From NCBI GenBank assembly GCA_040902655.1, contig JBBDWV010000009.1:1-43875 (forward strand): a stretch of DNA of 43,875 bases, in the 5' to 3' direction. This DNA comes from Mycobacteriales bacterium. GTDB lineage: Bacteria > Actinomycetota > Actinomycetes > Mycobacteriales > SCTD01. Position numbers and translations under genes: made by a program. This document shows, one piece after another, positions 19,362-41,975 of the stretch (the first letter of the stretch is position 1; each line of letters starts with the position of its first letter). A model generated the notes under the pieces. It ran no database searches, was not told the origin of the DNA, and saw nothing but the letters and a program-made list of their open reading frames with translations.

Positions 19362-19607
19362 ATGACCTCGACCCTCACCGTCTACAGCACCCCGTGGTGC
19401 GGCTACTGCCACCGGCTCATGAAGCAGCTGGACCGCCAGGGCATCGAGTACGCCTCGGTGGACATCGAGCGCGACGCCGCGGCGGCTGACTACGTGATGA
19501 CCGTCAACGGCGGCAACCAGACGGTGCCGACGGTCGTCTTCGCGGACGGCACGGCGCTCACCAACCCCAGCCTCGCGCAGGTCACCGCCAAGCTGGTCGC
19601 AGCATGA
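19362..19607 (+). CDS. Mycoredoxin (glutaredoxin-like)
   Basis: An 81-aa glutaredoxin-fold protein with the CGYC active site (13-16, [10 protein letters not shown]) and the TVPTVVF cis-Pro motif, matching mycoredoxin-1 in length and motifs. Mycoredoxins reduce protein-mycothiol mixed disulfides, which is the main reason to infer mycothiol use. AAGGAG precedes the ATG. It overlaps trxB by 4 nt (ATGA). Confidence 0.92.
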
Positions 19608-20647
19608 GCGACTCGCAGGTGCGCAACGCGATCGTGGTGGGTTCTGGTCCGGCGGGGTACACGGCGGCGATCTACCTGGCGCGGGCGGCGTTGGAGCCGC
19701 TGGTCTTCGAGGGGTCGGTCGCCGCCGGTGGTGCGCTGATGAACACCACCGACGTGGAGAACTACCCCGGCTTCCCCGACGGTGTGCTGGGTCCGGAGCT
19801 GATGGACGACCTGCGCAAGCAGGCCGAGCGGTTCGGGGCCGAGCTGGTCACCGACGACGTCACCGAGCTGGACCTGACCGCCGACCCGAAGGTGGTCAAG
19901 GTCGGGAACACCACCTACCTGGCCAGGACGGTGGTGCTGGCGATGGGCTCGGCCTACCGCAACCTGGACGTGCCCGGGGAGTCCGAGCTGTCCGGCCGGG
20001 GGGTGTCGTGGTGCGCGACCTGCGACGGGTTCTTCTTCCGCGACCAGGACATCGTGGTCGTCGGCGGTGGTGACTCCGCGGTGGAGGAAGCCACCTTCCT
20101 GACCCGCTTCGCGCGCAGCGTGACGATGGTGCACCGCCGGGACAGCCTGCGCGCCAGCAAGATCATGCAGGAGCGGGCGTTCAGCAACGACAAGATCCGC
20201 TTCGAGTGGGACAGCGAGGTGCTCGAGGCGGTCGGCACCGCCAAGCTCGAGGCGGTCCGGCTGCGCAACCGCCGCACCGGCCAGGACAAGACCCTGGCCG
20301 CGACCGGGCTGTTCGTCGCGATCGGCCACGACCCGCGCTCGGAGCTGGTCAAGGGCCAGGTCGACCTGGACGACGAGGGCTACGTCGTGCTGCACGCCCT
20401 GCACTCCACCGCCACCAACCTGCCCGGCGTGTTCGCCGCCGGCGACCTGGTCGACTCCACCTACCGGCAGGCCGTCACCGCCGCCGGCACCGGCTGCGCC
20501 GCCGCGCTGGACGCCGAGCGCTACCTGGCCGCCCAGGAAGACACCCCACCCGCGCCCGCCGTCGGCTTCGACACCGCCGTCCCGGCCGAACCACCGGACC
20601 GCCCCCAGGTCAAGGGCGGCCAGGGCAGCCCCCCGGCCAGCGTCTAG
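19604..20647 (+). CDS. trxB: Thioredoxin reductase
   Basis: A 347-aa FAD/NADPH flavoprotein. The FAD motif is GSGPAGY (13-19), the redox pair C137-x2-C140 is in [10 protein letters not shown], the NADPH motif is [10 protein letters not shown], and the C-terminal FAD motif is [20 protein letters not shown]. The C-terminal tail, about 35 residues rich in proline, is longer than usual. ATGA overlap with mycoredoxin implies joint expression of two thiol-reducing branches. Confidence 0.95.
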
Positions 20648-20954: not shown

Positions 20955-22397
20955 TCAGCTGCCAGGCCTGGCCGGGCGCCACCTCGAGCCGGCGAAGTCG
21001 CCGAAAAGCCGGGCGGCCGCCATCCGCAGCCCCAGCGCGTAGGTCGGGTACGGCGCGATCGTCTGTGCCAGCCGGGCCGCCAGCATGTCGGTGCGCATGG
21101 CGAGCGCCACCTGTGCGGCGAGCTCCCCGCCGGCCGGGCTCACGGCGGTGAAGCCGACGACGCGGTCCAGGACGTGCGCCCGCGCCAGCTTGCGGGGGCC
21201 GGCGATGAGCTTGAGGTAGCCGTCGGTGTGCCCGGAGGTCCGCGGCCGGTCCATCTCGTCCAGCCGTACGACGGCGACCCGGGCCCGCTCGCCGTACTGC
21301 TCGTACGCCTCCTGCTCGGTCAGGCCGACACGGCCGATCTCCGGGTCGGTGAAGGTGACCCACGGGACGACCCGGTCGTCGAACTCCCTCAACCCGCCCG
21401 CGAAGCCCGGGCGGAGCCGGCCGGAGGCGAAGGCGTTGCCGGCGGCGAGGCGACCCTGCTCGTCCCCCACGTGCGTGAACTGCAGGGGGGTGGTGCAGTC
21501 GCCCGCAGCGAAGATGTGCTCGGCCGAGGTGCGCAGGTGGGCGTCGGTCACGACCTGCTTCTGCTTGCCGAGGGTGACGCCGACCTCCTCCAGCTCCATG
21601 CCGCCCGTCGCCGGCCTGCGCCCCACGGCAACCAGCAGGTGGGAGCCGCTCACGGTCTGCCCGCCGGCGAGGTGCAGGGTGGGTCCGGCGGTGACCCGCT
21701 CGACGGCGTTGCCGATGCGGACGTCGACGCCGCTGCGCTCCAGCACCGTCGTCATCACCTCGGCGACCTCCGGCTCCTCCTTGGTGAGGATGCGCGGCAG
21801 TGCCTCGATCAGCGTCACCCGCGAGCCCAGCTGCGAGAAGGCCTGCGAGAGCTCGACGCCGATCGCGCCGCCACCCATGACGAGCAGGTGCTCCGGGCGC
21901 TCGGTGAGGTCGAACAAGGTCTTGTTGTCGAGGTGGGGGACCGTGTCCAGGCCCGGGATCGGCGGGATGGCCGCGTGCGCCCCCGTCGCGAGCACGAAGC
22001 GGGAGCCGGTGACCGCGCGGCCGTCCACGTCGACGGTGTGCGGGGAGGTGAAGCGGGCCCAGCCGTCCAGCAGGTCGATGCCCTCGGACGCCAGCCGGGC
22101 GGGGGACTCGTCCTGCTCGATCTGCTCGATGACGTCGTGGACGTGCCGCATCACCTTGGCGAAGTCGAGGTCTCCGACGGATCCGAGACCCCACTGCTGA
22201 GCCTCCCGGGCGCCGGACACCCGGTGGGCCAGATCGAGCAGGGTCTTGCTCGGCACACAGCCGTAGTGGGTGCAGTCGCCCCCGGGCCGCGCCTTCTCGA
22301 CCAGCGCGACGCTCCTGCCGGCGTTGCGGGCGGCGCGCGCCGCGGCGAGGCCGGTCGCTCCCGCGCCGATCACCACCAGGTCGTAGCTGCTCGTCAT
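20955..22397 (-). CDS. FAD-dependent disulfide oxidoreductase, mercuric reductase/lipoamide dehydrogenase-like
   Basis: A 480-aa flavoprotein with GAGATGLAAA (11-20), the redox pair C42-x4-C47 (GGDCTHYGCVPSK), NADH motif MGGGAIGVELS and FAAGDCT. The C-terminal catalytic HPTxSE is replaced by PYPTYALG, so the family His is missing, as in the enzyme at 2233-3582. GAAGGAG precedes the ATG. The ATG overlaps the stop of the 6-phosphogluconate dehydrogenase, which lies upstream in the same operon and could supply NAD(P)H. Confidence 0.85.
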   Translation of the reverse strand: MTSSYDLVVIGAGATGLAAARAARNAGRSVALVEKARPGGDCTHYGCVPSKTLLDLAHRVSGAREAQQWGLGSVGDLDFAKVMRHVHDVIEQIEQDESPARLASEGIDLLDGWARFTSPHTVDVDGRAVTGSRFVLATGAHAAIPPIPGLDTVPHLDNKTLFDLTERPEHLLVMGGGAIGVELSQAFSQLGSRVTLIEALPRILTKEEPEVAEVMTTVLERSGVDVRIGNAVERVTAGPTLHLAGGQTVSGSHLLVAVGRRPATGGMELEEVGVTLGKQKQVVTDAHLRTSAEHIFAAGDCTTPLQFTHVGDEQGRLAAGNAFASGRLRPGFAGGLREFDDRVVPWVTFTDPEIGRVGLTEQEAYEQYGERARVAVVRLDEMDRPRTSGHTDGYLKLIAGPRKLARAHVLDRVVGFTAVSPAGGELAAQVALAMRTDMLAARLAQTIAPYPTYALGLRMAAARLFGDFAGSRWRPARPGS

Positions 22398-23347
22398 CGT
22401 CGTCGCTCCTTCTCGTCGGCCCGGTGGATGGCGTGCCCGCCGTACTGGTTGCGCAGCAGCGCGACCGACTTCGCGGTCGGCCAGTCGAGGTCGCGGTAGG
22501 CCATCAGCATCTGCTGGGACATCCCGGTGACCGGCGTCGGGATGTCGTGCTCCATCGCCCAGTGGACGACCCACTTCACCTCGTCGGTGTCCTCCACGTA
22601 GGTGGAGATGCCCGCGGCCCGGGGTCCGACGTCGCTCTCCGGCCCGATTCCACCATGCGCCAGAGCGTTGCCCATCAGCTCGACCAGCCAGCTGCGGATC
22701 ACACTGCCGTGGTTCCAGTGCTCGAACAGGCTCGGCAGGTCCAGCTCGTGGTCGAATCCCTTCAACATCTCGACGCCCTCGGCGATCGCCTGCACCATGC
22801 CGAACTCGATCGCGTTGTGCACCAGCTTGACGAAGTGTCCGGAGGGGGAGGGGCCGGCGTAGAACACGCCCTGCTCGTCGACGGCCAGGTCCCTCAGCAG
22901 CGGGGCGACGACGTCGAAGCCGGCCCGCGGGCCGCCGGCCATGAAGGCGGCTCCGGTCCAGCCCGGGGCCTCGGAGATGCCGCCGCTGGTTCCGATGTCC
23001 AGGAAGTGCAGGCCCTGCTCGGCCAGCTCGTCGTGCCGCCGGCGGGAGTCCTCCCAGAAGGAGTTGCCGCAGTCGGCGACGACGTCACCGCGCTCCAGCC
23101 CGGGCGCCAGCTGCGCGAGGTTGTCGTCGACCACCTGGCCGTGCGGTGCCCACATCAGCACGACCCGAGGCGCCTCCAGCCGAGCAGGCACGTCCGCGAG
23201 GTTGTCCACAGTGGAGATGCCGGCCTTCCCGGCCGCCTGCCGGGCCTCCTCGTCCGGGTCCCAGCCGACCACATCGTGGCCCTGCTCCACGGCCAGCTGG
23301 CCCAGGCTCAGACCCATCCGGCCCAGTCCCGCGATGGCAAATCTCAT
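22394..23347 (-). CDS. gnd: 6-phosphogluconate dehydrogenase, decarboxylating (GndA-type)
   Basis: A 317-aa short-form 6-phosphogluconate dehydrogenase. The N-terminal cofactor motif is GLGRMGLSL, followed by WDPDEEAR at the second strand; substrate motifs are DIGTSGGISEA and the catalytic SGHFVKLVHNAIEFGMVQA. The acidic residue after the second strand suggests NAD rather than NADP, an inference. It oxidises 6-phosphogluconate to ribulose 5-phosphate and CO2. I start at the ATG encoding MRFAIAGLG, with GAGGAGCGCCG before it. Confidence 0.92.
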   Translation of the reverse strand: MRFAIAGLGRMGLSLGQLAVEQGHDVVGWDPDEEARQAAGKAGISTVDNLADVPARLEAPRVVLMWAPHGQVVDDNLAQLAPGLERGDVVADCGNSFWEDSRRRHDELAEQGLHFLDIGTSGGISEAPGWTGAAFMAGGPRAGFDVVAPLLRDLAVDEQGVFYAGPSPSGHFVKLVHNAIEFGMVQAIAEGVEMLKGFDHELDLPSLFEHWNHGSVIRSWLVELMGNALAHGGIGPESDVGPRAAGISTYVEDTDEVKWVVHWAMEHDIPTPVTGMSQQMLMAYRDLDWPTAKSVALLRNQYGGHAIHRADEKERRR

Positions 23348-34777: not shown

Positions 34778-35184
34778 GCTCGGAGCATCGCAGGTGGCTA
34801 CGACAACCCGCGGGCGTTGCAAGGCGTCGCCCGCACTTCGCGTCGTCCGCCCCCCGGGCTACGTGGGGGCAAGTCCGCGTCGCAGGTTCCTCAGACGGCG
34901 ACACAGACGCAGCCTTCGCTGCGGTCAGGTTCCGTAGACCGAACAGGCACGCCTGCACCTCACCTGGATGAACGACGGCTGCCTTCCTGCCTGCCGAGGT
35001 GAATGCACCCGCCAGGGTGCCGCAGGGGAAAGGCCTCCGCCGCGAGCGGCCACTGACGACGTTCGGCTCGCTGCGCGGATTGACAGGTCGTCGACGATTT
35101 ACGCCGGCTCGTTCAGTCGCAACCGCGCCTGGACGCCCGCATACGTCGTTGACGCGGAGGTATGACCGGGTCATACTCGCGTAC
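34778..35184. other. Intergenic region before mazEF
   Basis: About 400 bp between divergent genes. No gene is supported. The only clear structure is the mazEF operator palindrome at its right end. Confidence 0.5.
35160..35176. promoter_or_regulatory. MazEF operator palindrome
   Basis: GTATGACC-G-GGTCATAC is a perfect 8-bp-arm palindrome ending 8 bp before the antitoxin ATG. Its position fits autorepression by the antitoxin or the complex. Confidence 0.7.
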
Positions 35185-35430
35185 ATGAAGGCCGCCATCT
35201 CCGTCCCGGATCCGACGTTCGAGGCGGCTAGTCGTCGTGCGCGAGAACTGGGGATGAGCAGGTCGGAGTTCTTCTCGCGTGCTGCTGCGCACTACCTGAC
35301 CGAGCTCGATGCGGCCTCCCTGACCGCGCGCATCGACGCCGCACTGGAGGTCGCCGCGGACGAGGAGACCGAGACGGCGGTCGTGCACGCGAGCCGTCGG
35401 GCACTTCTTGCCGCCGACGAGGAGTGGTGA
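35185..35430 (+). CDS. mazE: MazE-type ribbon-helix-helix antitoxin
   Basis: An 81-aa protein starting MKAAISVPDPTFEAASRRAR with a ribbon-helix-helix DNA-binding N-terminus (residues 1-45, including LGMSRSEFFSRAAAHYL) and an acidic C-terminus (AADEETETAV, ADEEW) that would wrap the toxin. Its stop overlaps the toxin GTG. The perfect palindrome upstream is its likely operator. Confidence 0.88.
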   Translation: MKAAISVPDPTFEAASRRARELGMSRSEFFSRAAAHYLTELDAASLTARIDAALEVAADEETETAVVHASRRALLAADEEW

Positions 35431-35774
35431 TCCAGCGGGGTCGGATCTTCTGGGTCGACCTCGGCGAGAGCACCGGCAGCACACCGGCCAAGCGGCGGCC
35501 TGTCGTCGTGGTGTCAGCGGATGCGTTCAACCGCAGCAGGTTGCGCACGGTGCTTGCCGCGACCCTCACGTCCAACACGGGCGTGGCCGCGCACCCCGGC
35601 AACGTCTTCCTGCCAGCCACCGCGACCGGCCTCGCACAGGACTCGGCGGTCAACGTCACCCAGATCGTGACCCTCGACCGCGGCACGTTGGAAGGCCAAG
35701 AACCCGCGGGGGAGGTGCCGGGCTACCTCATGACCGACCTGGACGCGGGGCTGCGCCTCGTGATGGACCTGTAG
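35424..35774 (+). CDS. mazF: MazF-type endoribonuclease toxin
   Basis: 116 aa from GTG 35424 (or 115 from 35427). The PemK/MazF fold is clear: RGRIFWVDLGE at the N-terminus, KRRPVVVVSAD, the TSNTG loop region, and VTQIVTLDRGTL. It would cleave mRNA at short motifs; sequence specificity cannot be read here. It overlaps the antitoxin, as is usual for such pairs. Confidence 0.92.
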   Translation: MVIQRGRIFWVDLGESTGSTPAKRRPVVVVSADAFNRSRLRTVLAATLTSNTGVAAHPGNVFLPATATGLAQDSAVNVTQIVTLDRGTLEGQEPAGEVPGYLMTDLDAGLRLVMDL

Positions 35775-36900: not shown

Positions 36901-38115
36901 TTGCAGAGCGACGCGCGCAACGACCGAGATCCCGCACCGCCTGCCGACGAGTCTGTCGCCGGTTTGGGTGAGGAGGGCCGCCGGGCGTGGGCCCGCCGGG
37001 TGGACGCCTGCGTCGCGCAGGCCGCGGCACGCGAGCCGAGGTCGCCGTGGATGGTGCACCCGCCGGACGTGCGACTCGGCGAGACCACGATGGTCGACTG
37101 GACGGGGCTGCCGCTGCGCGTCGCATCGTGTCTGCCGCGGAAGGACGGGCTGGCGCTGCTCGACTGGCAAGGAATGTCGGGCTGCGAGGGGCGCCAGCGG
37201 CTTCAGGAGGAGTACGTGGAGTGGCGGGTCGTACGGGACCCGGACGGGGGCGTACGGCGCGTGGAGTTCACCACGGAGCTGGCCGACTTCTGGCGGGTGC
37301 TCGCCGCGCATGCGCCTGCGGAGGCGCTGCGGGTGGCGGCCACGTTTGCTGGCGAGCCGAGCTTGCCGGCGGCGGCGCTGTTCGGGTCGACGGACCCGTT
37401 CGCCGCGGGTGTGTCGCCGGAGGACCGAGAAGCCGCGTTCGCGGCGGCGATGCTCGACGAGCCAGGGCCCTACAACTCGGGCGATCGCTCGCTGTGCTGC
37501 ATGGTGCACCCGTCGAACACGCTCCAGGCACTTGTGACGTTGCTGTCGGCCGCAGCGTTCTCGTTCGTGACCGGAGAGCCTGCCGGCTGCGCACCCGCCT
37601 GGCAGACGATTCCGCTGCTTTCCGGTGCGGCGCAGGATGGGCGCGGCAGCGACCCGGTCCTCGTCGAGCGGCTCGGTCGTCTAGCGTTCGAAGGCCGACT
37701 CATCGGGATTGACGACCCGGTCGGGATGTTCATCGTTGGCGTCGAGCACAGTCGGCTGCACCGGCCGGACGGTCGGCCGGTTCCACCCGAATGGTTTTCG
37801 TTCGGCCGTGGCATGGCTGCGGGCGGCGCTGCCGACGGCCGGGCGCGGTACCGCCGGCTGGTGCTGGAAGTCCCGCCGGGGGAGGGACTGCGGGTGAGCG
37901 ACCTGGTGGACACAGCAACAGAGCAGCCGATCGCGTTCGGCTGCCAGGTGGCCGACCTGGTGCAGCTGGCAGTCGTCCTGAAGGTCAGCGCGCCGGGCGC
38001 TCTGAAAGAGCATCCGCGGCAGTGCGAGCCGATCCCGCGCCCTGCAGACGGTCTCTCGTGCGCGGGTGTCCTCGACGCGTGGGCAGACTTCCGTGCTGCA
38101 GGGGCGGCGCGGTGA
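36901..38115 (+). CDS. Uncharacterised DyP-associated family protein, divergent long form
   Basis: A 404-aa protein beginning at TTG 36901 with GGAAAG 7 nt upstream. It shares with the protein at 40968-41975 a signature block at about residues 102-125 (QEEYVEWRVVRDPDGGVRRV, EFTTELADFW), an NTLQALVTL region, and a C-terminal DDPVGMFIV, then FGCQVADLVQLAVVLKV. It is longer and Cys-richer than its partner (LCCMVHPSNT, CEGRQRL). No function is known to me. Its stop overlaps the peroxidase GTG. Confidence 0.75.
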   Translation: MQSDARNDRDPAPPADESVAGLGEEGRRAWARRVDACVAQAAAREPRSPWMVHPPDVRLGETTMVDWTGLPLRVASCLPRKDGLALLDWQGMSGCEGRQRLQEEYVEWRVVRDPDGGVRRVEFTTELADFWRVLAAHAPAEALRVAATFAGEPSLPAAALFGSTDPFAAGVSPEDREAAFAAAMLDEPGPYNSGDRSLCCMVHPSNTLQALVTLLSAAAFSFVTGEPAGCAPAWQTIPLLSGAAQDGRGSDPVLVERLGRLAFEGRLIGIDDPVGMFIVGVEHSRLHRPDGRPVPPEWFSFGRGMAAGGAADGRARYRRLVLEVPPGEGLRVSDLVDTATEQPIAFGCQVADLVQLAVVLKVSAPGALKEHPRQCEPIPRPADGLSCAGVLDAWADFRAAGAAR

Positions 38116-39320
38116 GCGCCGACGGCCATCTGCTGCAGGAGGGCATCTTCTGGCGGCACGGGGAGCGCCCGCCGCTCAGCCTTCGGCTCGTGCTGCTCGA
38201 CTTCACCGCGGGCGCGACTGCCGAGCAGGCCGGCGAGGCCCTCGCCCTGATCGTCGAATGCGTCCAGCGGTTGCGGCGAGGGGAGGTGCGCGACCTCGCT
38301 GGGCAGGCCGAGCGGACTCGGGCCGAGAGCACGGCGCAGTTCGCCGGCCTGCGACTGCTGCTTGGGTTCGGGCGGCGGCTGTTCGACGACCAGCGTCACG
38401 ACCCGCCGGTCGTTGCGCTCCCGCGGCCGGACTTCCTGGCCTACCTCCCTCGAACCGGCGAGCCGTTTCCGGCGCTGCCCTGGGACGGTGGGCGCCGGAC
38501 GGGAGAGGCCGACGTCCTCATGCAGCTGACCGCAGAAAGCGAGGCGGCAGTCAACGCTGCTGCGGTGGAGATCTGGAAGGTCATCGCCGACCACGCGCTA
38601 CCGGTCGCGGTCGCCGAGAGCTACCCGGGCTTCGGACGGCCCGATGGGCGCGGTTGGCTGGGCTTCCACGATGGCGTCAGCAACCTGCGAACTGAGGACA
38701 GGGCGGCAGCCATGGTGGCCGGGCAGCACCCGGCCTGGATGGCCGGCGGGACGTACTTGGCGTTCCTGCGGCTGCGAGTCGACCTGGCGGCGTGGCGAGC
38801 CTTGTCGCGCGCGCAGCAAGAGCTGTTGGTCGGGCGCGACAAGCTCAGTGGCGCGCCCCTGATCGGCACCGAGCGTGGGCCGTCGGGCGAGCTCCGGCCG
38901 GTCGCCGCCTCTCCGCCGGCGCTGGGCGCGAACCTTCCGTCCGACTACAGAGACCCGCCGCAGGTCACCGATCCGGTGATCGAGGCGTCGCACGTGCACC
39001 GCGCGAACCAGAACCGGGCGTCGGGCTCGGCTGCCGGGGGTCTGCGGATGTTCCGGCAGGGCTATGAGTTCCTCGACGGTCTGGGGCCGGAAGGACCGTC
39101 GCTCGGGCTGACCTTCGTCAGCTTCCAGCGCGACCTGTCCACGGTCCAGCACTTGCTGCACCTGCCGGGATGGCTCGGCGACGTCAACTTCGGCGGACGG
39201 GCCGGGCGCGGGCCGGACGAGCCGCCAGCCATTGCGTTCGTGTCGCTCGTTGCCGGCGGCCTGTACGCGATGCCCCCGCGGGCAGCGCCGTTCCCCGGCG
39301 CGGACGTCTTCTCGCGCTGA
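38112..39320 (+). CDS. DyP-type heme peroxidase
   Basis: A 402-aa heme peroxidase. The DyP signature is GFHDGVSN (residue 184 onward) with the catalytic distal Asp, followed by GGTYLAFLRLRVDL. The proximal heme-ligand His is probably H294 in SHVHRAN, and FRQGYEF and GLTFVSFQRDL complete the family pattern. No signal peptide or Tat motif is visible, so it is probably cytoplasmic unless exported with partners. GTG overlaps the upstream stop. It should oxidise a substrate with H2O2; the two flanking families are candidate partners or substrate-handling proteins. Confidence 0.88.
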   Translation: MSADGHLLQEGIFWRHGERPPLSLRLVLLDFTAGATAEQAGEALALIVECVQRLRRGEVRDLAGQAERTRAESTAQFAGLRLLLGFGRRLFDDQRHDPPVVALPRPDFLAYLPRTGEPFPALPWDGGRRTGEADVLMQLTAESEAAVNAAAVEIWKVIADHALPVAVAESYPGFGRPDGRGWLGFHDGVSNLRTEDRAAAMVAGQHPAWMAGGTYLAFLRLRVDLAAWRALSRAQQELLVGRDKLSGAPLIGTERGPSGELRPVAASPPALGANLPSDYRDPPQVTDPVIEASHVHRANQNRASGSAAGGLRMFRQGYEFLDGLGPEGPSLGLTFVSFQRDLSTVQHLLHLPGWLGDVNFGGRAGRGPDEPPAIAFVSLVAGGLYAMPPRAAPFPGADVFSR

Positions 39321-39391
39321 CGTCGCGCCTGGTCAGCTACCGCGCGATCCGCGCGTACGGTGGGCGCTTCGCCGCGAGGAAGGAAGAGCAC

Positions 39392-40964
39392 TTGACCCCG
39401 ACGATGGTCATCGATGAGTCGTGCGGCGCCTTCCGCAACCTGCCAGAGGAGGCGCTCGCGCCCGACGCGATCCAGCGCATGGTGATCGGCGAGGACGCAG
39501 CGCTGCGCACACTGACGGCCGAGCAAGCCGCGGCCGAGCTCGGCGACGTGTTCGCGAGGACGCTGCTGCTGCGCGGCCGTTTCCCGAGGACCGCCGGCGA
39601 AGTGCTCGCCTTCTTCGCCGAAGCAGGGGACGCCGACGGTTCGGTGGGCGAGCCGAGCTTCTTCCTGGTTGGCGACGGCAGCCAGATCGCGATGACGCCC
39701 GACACAGCGGGCGTCGCGCGGAACCTGCGCTTCCTCGTTGCGCTCGGCGGTGGCCCAGAAGGCCCGGACGTGCTCCTGAGCACGCTCTCCCGACCAAGGA
39801 GAAGTCGAGGTCATGGCCTGGGACCGGGAACGGGGCGGCTTCAACTACTACCGCACCGTCGGCGCCAGCTCCGGGTGGGTGTTCGCGGGAAACTCCCGGC
39901 ACGCGCTGAGCGACCCCACCCAGGGAAAGGGACCCTTCGAGAGTCACACGTCGGGCAACTTCCTCATGAAGGAGCTGCGCTCGCCGTGGATCCATTGGGA
40001 CTCCCCGGCAGCGCAGATCTTCCCCTCGGTGTTAGGTGGCCCGCCGCACGAGTGGTTCGGCCGTAAAGAGCTCAGCGGCGCACTGGCGTGCGAGACGGCT
40101 GTGGCCCGGCCCAGCATCGTGCGGTGGACGAAGGCACGCTTCGACGGCTTGGTGGCTGCCGGCGGCAAGATCACCGACCCGGCGCGGATCATGCGACAGC
40201 TGCTCGAGACGCCGACGGTCAACTTGATCTCCAGCCACACTGAAGCCAGGAACGCCGCATCAGGGACCGTTGACCTGCCCCAGACGTTCTTCATCGACTC
40301 CGAGGAGCTGTCCGAGGTCCTCGGGTTGCAGGCGCCGCCACCCTTCGCGGTCTCCGGGCCCATCTACGAGCAAAGCCTGACGAACTTCGGTGTGCACCTG
40401 AGCGACGGTAAGGGATTCGAGCAGGCCGGCGACACGCACTTCGCCTTCTGCGTGCCCGAGCGGGCGCTGGAGGACACCCAGGTGCTGCGCGAGGCCCGGC
40501 GCATCGGGCTCCTGAGCGATCGGCTCGCGGCGAGCCTGCTCATGACCGACTTCGCCAACCCGATCTTCTCGGTGCGTCGCGCGTCGTTGATGGCGCATGT
40601 TCCCGCAGCGGCAACAGTGGCGGCCGGCGCCGCCTCGTTCTCCGTCGACATGGCCGCGGCGATCCTGGCCGCGGCCGAGACCTCGCCGGCCGACAGCGCC
40701 GAACGGGAGTTCGCCGAGCTGTGGGCAGTCGGCGAAGACTTCAAGCCCTCCTTCGACGCGCTGCTGAGTGCCTACTACGACCAGATCACCGAGCGGCTGC
40801 AGACCCAGGCGGGCTACGACGATTACTTCCGCCTGGCCGAGTCCCGGCGTGAACACGTTGAGGAAACGATGCCGATCGCCGAGAGCCCGCTGCTGTTCGC
40901 AAAGGCGCGAGAGCGCGTCGGGGCTCTGCGGATGCTTACCGACGGTTCTGTGGCAGCGGGCTGA
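39392..40964 (+). pseudogene. Large GFNYY-type protein of unknown function, split by a 1-bp frameshift
   Basis: The first part reads from TTG 39392 (AGGAAGGA upstream) through FPRTAGEVLAFF, FFLVGDGSQIAMTPDTAG and GPDVLLSTLS. The next part, in another frame, reads DQGEVEVMAWDRERGGFNYY and on to TGA at 40964, including HTSGNFLMKEL, SPWIHWDSPAAQI, TVNLISSHTEARN and AGDTHFAFCVPE. Removing one C near 39790 joins them into a ~523-aa protein. An internal ATG at 39813 with AAGGAG could allow a 383-aa product alone. I recognise the pattern from unnamed bacterial proteins only. Confidence 0.72.
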
Positions 40965-40967
40965 ACC

Positions 40968-41975
40968 GTGGCGACGCTCAGACAATTCGCTGCCCCGGCC
41001 CGGCTCGCCGAGCCCAACGAGGCGGATGGTGCGGCCTGGAGCGACGTCGTCAGTGACATGCTCGCCCAGTTCGCGGCGGAGTTCCCGCAGTTCTACGATC
41101 CGACAGCAGCCGACACGCCCGCCGACGCGATTGTTGCGCGCATCGGCTGGCCTGCCTTCCCAGCACCGCTGCTGCGCGGGGCGACCACCGAGACCGGGCG
41201 CTGGGAGACCGCGGACGACCGCGACCAGCAGGTCGAGTACTGCGAGTGGAGCGTCGAGCGCGATAGCGACGGCACGATCAACCGGGTGACGTTCAGCACC
41301 GAGGTTCCCGAGTTCTGGGAGCACGTCGCGAACCGGGACCCAGAACGACTCCTCGCGATGTACCGCGAGCTGGTCGACGGACGGGTGGAGGAGAAGGACC
41401 TGTTCGACTCCGGCAAGTACGTGCCGCGCAACAAGTGGAACACCACAGCCGAGGGCCGCCTCGCGCATCTCGTACAGAAGAACAACACGCTGGGCGCCGC
41501 GGCACGGCTGGCGGCCGAGGCAACGGTGCAGCGCGTCGACAGCGGCGGCCGCCGCGTCAGCGACCAACAGATCCTCGTACGCTGCGCGGGACTCGGCGAT
41601 GAGTTCCGCAACAGCGACCCGCGGATCGCCGCGGCCGTCAACGACGCTGCCGCCACCGGCGCTGAGATCACGCTGCAGGACCCCATCGGGCTGTACCTGC
41701 ACGAGATCAGGACGACAGGCATGGTGACTCCTGAGCGAGACACTGACCGGGCCGACCCGGCGGCGTTCTGGACGATCGAGCGCGGCGACATCGACCACGC
41801 GGTGCGCGCGAGCTTCGCCGTCCCGCCCGAGCTTGGCTTCGCGGTCGGCGACATCAAGCTCGACGGCCGCCCGATCCAGTTCGGTGCGCAGCTGGCCGAC
41901 CGAGTGACTGTCCGTCTCACCGCACTGGTGAAGCCAGCGGCGCACGAGCCACGGGTCGAGGGCTGCGTCACGTAG
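40968..41975 (+). CDS. Uncharacterised DyP-associated family protein, short form
   Basis: A 335-aa protein with the signature QVEYCEWSVERDSDGTINRV and TFSTEVPEFWEHVA at about residues 88-120, KYVPRNKWNTT, LVQKNNTLGAAARLAAEAT, RNSDPRIAAAVNDAA and ITLQDPIGLYLHEI. It is a paralogue of the first gene of this operon. GTG starts 3 bp after the preceding stop. The family is widespread but, to my knowledge, without a known function; it shows no obvious metal or cofactor motif. Confidence 0.78.
   Translation: MATLRQFAAPARLAEPNEADGAAWSDVVSDMLAQFAAEFPQFYDPTAADTPADAIVARIGWPAFPAPLLRGATTETGRWETADDRDQQVEYCEWSVERDSDGTINRVTFSTEVPEFWEHVANRDPERLLAMYRELVDGRVEEKDLFDSGKYVPRNKWNTTAEGRLAHLVQKNNTLGAAARLAAEATVQRVDSGGRRVSDQQILVRCAGLGDEFRNSDPRIAAAVNDAAATGAEITLQDPIGLYLHEIRTTGMVTPERDTDRADPAAFWTIERGDIDHAVRASFAVPPELGFAVGDIKLDGRPIQFGAQLADRVTVRLTALVKPAAHEPRVEGCVT

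Follow-up and report, generated by a model that had tools for sequence, protein, structure and literature searches.

The gene cluster considered here, found in a window of 43,875 nucleotides (the whole stretch of DNA that was analysed), is composed of two modules, in which one member of a partner family, A, accompanies a DyP peroxidase and a second member, B, accompanies a protein named GFNYY, rather than of a duplication around the peroxidase. The pairing of the genes, its conservation, the fusions of GFNYY with B and the occurrence of DyP or CxxCH genes beside further members of the family are direct observations, and the gene association is well supported, while the role of the A/B family as a partner is moderately supported. 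Our main reading, to which a probability of roughly 45% is given, is that these two enzyme-plus-partner modules would form the oxidative arm of conflict arrays of a known type. The conflict role is a reasoned proposal, which fits the relatives of the cluster better than the window.

The open reading frames and the sequence confirm the original prediction of four same-strand genes, overlapping or 3-71 bp apart, in the order A, DyP, GFNYY and B on the + strand (Table 1). The stop of A at 38115 overlaps a possible GTG start of DyP at 38112, and a gap of 71 bp separates the end of DyP (39320) from GFNYY, if the TTG at 39392, which is preceded by an AGGAAG-type ribosome site, is the start. Between the GFNYY stop (40964) and the GTG start of B (40968) there are 3 bp. 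The scan for promoters returned no promoter-like site and that for terminators two terminator-like sites, against 1.9 expected, both results being uninformative. Upstream of the cluster, the window holds a MazF-like/ribbon-helix-helix pair, as well as ordinary redox and sugar genes.

Table 1. Genes and gene parts of the two modules, with positions in the window.
Feature	Position	Strand	Description	Evidence
A	36901..38115	+	404-aa undescribed partner-family member, A clade	ORF, homology to B, alignment, clade
DyP peroxidase	38112..39320	+	P-type-like, about 402 aa	Pfam/NCBIfam, PDB sequence matches, alignment
GFNYY, N-terminal part	39392..39791	+	First frame, probable TTG start	ORF and family profile
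GFNYY, main part	39786..40964	+	Second frame, invariant His of GPFESH motif kept	ORF, alignment, family profile
B	40968..41975	+	335 aa, partner family, constant GFNYY partner	ORF, alignment

The GFNYY-B module was recognized through a profile scan of genome contigs, which recovered 50 loci with relatives of GFNYY, B being the next gene in 48 of them and the two loci that lack it (L066 and L067) being remote matches. The two proteins are fused in three genomes, two of Azospirillum (L009 and L055) and one of Microvirga (L115), and among 396 evenly sampled genomes of the phylum they occur in the same four (three and three once the genome of the window is removed) and neither occurs alone. Given that G055 and G167 of this sample recur among the loci as L021 and L054, the sample and the 50 loci are partly dependent. 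The A-DyP module, on the other hand, has A directly preceding DyP in all three genomes, and within the fetched flanks it lies beside GFNYY-B in the window, L015 and L021 only, where, in both L015 and L021, it is carried on the opposite strand and converges on GFNYY-B. GFNYY-B thus occurs independently of the peroxidase, an outcome that the original proposal had named as counting against it, since 49 of the 50 genome loci of GFNYY-B show no A-DyP of the window's kind in the fetched flanks, the exception being L021. When the six-member clade of the window's B is taken together with L015 and L019, which were added from outside the tree, six of the eight have a peroxidase gene within about 3.4 kb, which is a DyP in the window, L015 and L021 and an animal-haem type in L018, L019 and L020.

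A and B are homologous (26% identity over 268 aa, E 8e-14), as expected if an unnamed family is present twice in the cluster. In a tree of 40 family members, midpoint-rooted and with 13 B loci omitted by choice, the three A proteins form a separate group whose stem is 2.96 changes per site long (support 100/100), and the tree program flagged possible long-branch attraction. Given these separate clades and the long, fully supported stem, it is improbable that A arose recently by duplication of B, and the two proteins appear from their sequences to be old paralogues that belong to two modules, which replaces the earlier view of a partner duplicated on both sides of the peroxidase.

The hosts of the GFNYY loci belong to the Actinomycetota, Pseudomonadota, Verrucomicrobiota, Planctomycetota and Candidatus Dormiibacterota, together with one poor Flavobacterium MAG, and plasmid records include 13 with GFNYY and 25 with the partner family. 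Among 60 close relatives searched, GFNYY was found in none of the eight genomes of the genus and none of the 15 of the family, and a single weak, short match (E 5e-4) came from another family of the order. A sample of 385 genomes was taken from the class of L051, a Bradyrhizobium that was its chosen centre and is counted in it; three of them have the partner family and one, L051 itself, has GFNYY. In viral contigs, 15 stretches matched the GFNYY pattern and none was a true relative. The rarity and patchiness of the module suggest horizontal spread.

GFNYY had been described as a protein of ~520 aa, and this does not correspond to one open frame in the window, where a frame offset had been missed. 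The gene is split over two frames (ORFs 39170-40066 and 39813-40964), of which the family profile aligns the first up to 39790 and the second from 39786, with a single offset near 39786-39791, within the CTCTCCCGACC stretch. A programmed frameshift was considered and rejected, given that GFNYY is a single ORF in 46 of the 48 GFNYY-B loci (the exceptions being L060 and the fragmentary L062, where the frame is broken) and that the rhizobial breaks are of another kind. The cluster may instead be decaying in this genome, with GFNYY as a pseudogene, a reading compatible with the others and one that we hold as tentative, somewhat short of an even chance: it accounts for the frame break itself and has a parallel in the Rhizobium copies L060 and L083, which have a stop at a conserved Trp and a later break, but both frames of the window are open up to the break and the second part keeps 17/17 of the invariant residues that it covers. 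Because of this complete retention, the break would be either recent or an assembly error, and small offsets in C runs are a common assembly fault, which the offset seen here would fit.

The company kept by the relatives provides the basis of the conflict role. Profiles were built from labelled neighbours (S8 and trypsin peptidases, NucA-type and type I endonucleases, caspase, LodA, VioB-type ferritin-like proteins, PLD, animal-haem peroxidase and the two kinds of DyP) and searched in 48 loci, over 7 kb to either side. At least one profiled neighbour was present in 28/48 loci and none in the remaining 20, against 0/18 random 20-kb stretches, all of them actinobacterial, which is not true of all the loci; this tally is biased, given that the seeds came from 16 of the 48 loci and that domains fused to B were counted as neighbours. 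With the seed loci excluded, the comparison becomes 12/32 against 0/18 (p = 0.002), one of the 12 (L022) being a weak DyP fragment that lacks Pfam confirmation. The caspase profile matched none of the 48 loci, while Pfam gave a caspase in 2 of 97 neighbours.

B is itself fused to PLD in L010, L055 and L057, to an S8 peptidase in L054 and, in L065, to trypsin, Exo_endo_phos and a NucA-type nuclease, the next gene being EAD1-trypsin. A NucA-type nuclease and a trypsin-like peptidase share one ORF in L065 and in L043. In seven Streptomyces loci (L035, L039, L040, L041, L042, L045 and L064), the same trypsin plus endonuclease I ORF, checked by Pfam in L035 and L039, lies just after B, and in five of the seven an S8 peptidase lies just before GFNYY.

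These arrangements recall System 3 of Kaur 2020, with its NucA nuclease, trypsin/S8 peptidases and EAD1 (PMC7159879), and the peptidase-nuclease sets described for LypC, in the CARD-NLR-like LypABC (PMC13236601). The likeness lies in relatives of GFNYY-B that are near or fused to trypsin, S8 peptidase, NucA-type or type I endonuclease or PLD, with EAD1 in L065; the difference is that our own profiles found none of those genes in the window. Over its full 43.9 kb, the profiles for S8, trypsin, nuclease, caspase, LodA, VioB, PLD and animal-haem peroxidase were unmatched, and a NucA-type nuclease with a trypsin-like peptidase in one operon, the mark of a peptidase-nuclease array, was not found, so that the conflict role rests on the relatives. 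A word search of PMC7159879 found neither peroxidase nor LodA, and in PMC13236601 LodA was absent and the single occurrence of "peroxidase" was an antibody label. A further parallel is offered by the quinoprotein oxidases LodA/LodB and GoxA, in which the oxidase is made with a dedicated partner (flavoprotein) gene. LodA/LodB genes share arrays with GFNYY-B or B-DyP, but LodA and GFNYY show no profile relation and B, unlike the partner of LodA, has no flavoprotein or other Pfam match.

Other arrays point elsewhere, given that LodA/LodB, VioB-type and radical SAM genes near the relatives would fit a metabolite pathway equally well. DyP and GFNYY would then be peroxide- or oxygen-dependent enzymes that tailor a specialised metabolite or peptide, and A and B would serve them as catalytic or carrier partners. 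This draws on the Pfam matches of 97 neighbour ORFs from 12 of 16 loci outside Streptomyces and Geodermatophilaceae (L057, L060, L066, L067 and some ORFs being omitted and a few added), which include LodA_N (5), Trp_halogenase (6), FAD_binding_3 (7), VioB-type Ferritin-like (5) and radical SAM (3). In the same 97 neighbours, PADLOC reported subtilase (4), pVip (3, probably generic radical SAM), RT-Protease_XI (3) and caspase (2). We consider a tailoring role rather unlikely, given that no peptide- or polyketide-assembly family appears among the 25 of 87 neighbour Pfam families listed, that B occurs in fusions with nuclease, protease and PLD domains, and that the Streptomyces loci share few neighbour clusters, most neighbours there being unannotated.

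The partner role is approached through members of the A/B family in stretches from which GFNYY is absent, where the next gene is a DyP or a CxxCH gene in 11/11 loci. The DyP_N class follows in seven (L011, L012, L013, L014, L078, L079 and L114), with Pfam DyP domains confirmed in L011-L014, near the cut-offs in L078, and with the calls for L079 and L114 resting on our own profile and the NCBI product name. A CxxCH-family (cytochrome-like) gene with one CxxCH motif follows in the other four (L077, L110, L111 and L113). The PLSDB records with the family and no GFNYY number 12, of which nine were examined, the other three being Paracoccus with the same match as L077. The DyP of the window, which is P-type-like, belongs to a class other than DyP_N, so that the family is linked to two kinds of DyP. 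Given this linkage in 11/11 loci, and A preceding DyP in 3/3, haem enzymes seem to have a dedicated partner in the A/B family, and the fusions and the gene spacing make it plausible that the two members of each pair form a complex.

The roles might also be reversed, with catalysis residing in the B-family proteins and only electrons or peroxide being supplied by DyP, GFNYY or the CxxCH protein, a reading suggested by His167, Cys92 and Cys206, which are invariant in all 42 aligned B members (the window and 41 of the 48 genome loci with B). In a 15-row alignment, however, His167 is kept in 12/12 non-A members and replaced in 3/3 A proteins, by Cys in that of the window and Phe in its two relatives, even though A is paired with an apparently intact DyP that keeps its presumed catalytic residues, which makes this reversal improbable.

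That the gene is a DyP peroxidase was verified by PF20628 (Dyp_perox_C; 80.7 bits, cut-off 20) and TIGR01413 (113.2 bits, cut-off 100.5), both above curated cut-offs. Asp187 of GFHDG, H294, H296 and Arg315 are identical in the window and both close relatives (3/3), in which the first Gly of GFHDG is Glu; we take Asp187 to be the distal Asp (GxxDG), H294 and H296 the candidate proximal His and R315 the distal Arg. In the PDB, the sequences that match it best are deferrochelatase/peroxidases (6kmm, E 5e-14), as for EfeB/deferrochelatase-like P-type DyPs, but the score for the EfeB equivalog TIGR01412 is far below its cut-off (75.7 against 428 bits) and, unlike those enzymes, this DyP is paired with A and shows no Tat signal by eye. 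The earlier doubt about encapsulin and secretion roles is upheld, as the encapsulin family PF04454 has no match in the genome of the window (97.9% complete; control matches in 3/14 genomes), which leaves no shell gene of this family for a cargo DyP, and inspection by eye found neither signal nor Tat motif at the N-terminus. That this is an unremarkable DyP, serving peroxide defence or the oxidation of aromatics beside genes unrelated to it, is very improbable, for although it is the only DyP gene of its genome and ordinary metabolic genes lie upstream, A precedes DyP in 3/3 genomes and the partner family precedes DyPs of another class in seven loci.

GFNYY was originally held to be unlike any characterised class, and it has no useful match in Pfam, NCBIfam or the PDB. 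Pfam matched one of 48 GFNYY members (DUF7224, E 0.0005, and nothing else) and none of 42 B members, NCBIfam matched neither A, B nor either GFNYY frame of the window, and PDB sequence searches with B and GFNYY, singly and as profiles, gave no meaningful match. In profile comparisons, no relation emerged between GFNYY and the CxxCH family, animal-haem peroxidase, LodA, DyP or B, nor between B and DyP. AlphaFold2 models had a mean pLDDT of 92.6 for GFNYY, taken from Geodermatophilus (L022) because the window copy is broken, and of 95.1 for the window's B. Against the PDB, Foldseek found no match at E <= 0.001 for either model, and with VIA-align the best Z for GFNYY was 3.0 and B had no row; viral structures also gave none for B at E <= 0.001. 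On these models, a new fold is not proved. A single His (186) is invariant in 48/48 aligned GFNYY members (the window and 47 of the 50 loci), which is compatible with haem binding and no proof of it. From its gene company, GFNYY looks like a new oxidative enzyme, putatively haem- or metal-dependent. No description of the GFNYY or A/B families, which have no searchable name, was found in open-licence PMC text.

In the two-module reading, each oxidative enzyme (DyP or GFNYY) would be co-produced with a partner-family member of its own (A or B), which may bind it and aid its assembly, cofactor state or docking. GFNYY itself would be a haem- or metal-dependent oxidative enzyme with a fold as yet unsolved. 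The modules would add an oxidative effector activity to multi-enzyme conflict arrays, where the adjoining proteases and nucleases would activate or accompany it, and in this genome they stand without such neighbours, with a GFNYY that may be decaying or mis-assembled. A bolder version, which we consider doubtful, is that GFNYY founds a new class of oxidative enzymes, with its unsolved fold, and that A/B is a general subunit recruited by several unrelated haem oxidoreductases (two DyP classes, the CxxCH protein and GFNYY), which would provide bacteria, for immunity triggered by proteases or for competition, with an interchangeable oxidative effector.

Two sizeable families that co-occur in at least five bacterial phyla are nameless, with no useful domain model and no fold match in the PDB, and one of them is tied to several classes of haem enzymes. 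If the partner role is true, it would explain the assembly or targeting of such haem enzymes and, if the conflict role is true, oxidation would join proteases and nucleases among the weapons of bacterial immune arrays.

Upstream of the four-gene cluster (partner-family gene A, DyP peroxidase, the GFNYY protein and the second partner-family gene, B), a ribbon-helix-helix protein, whose PF01402 score falls slightly below the cut-off, and a PemK/MazF-type toxin (PF02452, E 2.2e-22) are encoded, which probably constitute a toxin-antitoxin pair. Elsewhere in the window, redox genes are represented by a thioredoxin reductase, with TIGR01292 above its cut-off, and a MerA/disulfide-reductase-like gene, whose scores are under the cut-offs shown.

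Features in the window outside the cluster
Feature	Position	Orientation	Basis
Thioredoxin reductase gene and MerA/disulfide-reductase-like gene	19604-20647 and 20955-22574	opposite strands	profile matches
Ribbon-helix-helix protein and PemK/MazF-type toxin gene	34999-35774		Pfam

In a Sinorhizobium meliloti SM11 plasmid, a partner-family gene immediately precedes the gene of a 1174-aa protein in which a DyP domain and leucine-rich repeats are combined (L078:10328-13849). In loci L077, L110, L111 and L113, the partner family is represented by a second lineage, accompanied by a cytochrome-like CxxCH protein; in L077 and L110 these genes are adjoined by a tyrosinase.

In the rhizobial loci L060 and L083, the GFNYY gene has a stop at the conserved Trp and a further break later, and these copies are probably pseudogenes.

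Finally, in three loci (L008, L033 and L037) the GFNYY-B pair lies near a recurring protein that has no Pfam match and is named as heme-binding in the NCBI annotation of L008. A recurrent group of four genes adjoins either GFNYY-B or B-DyP in L051, L056, L058, L080 and L013; they encode LodA, a flavoprotein resembling LodB, a protein containing HExxH and a smaller protein.
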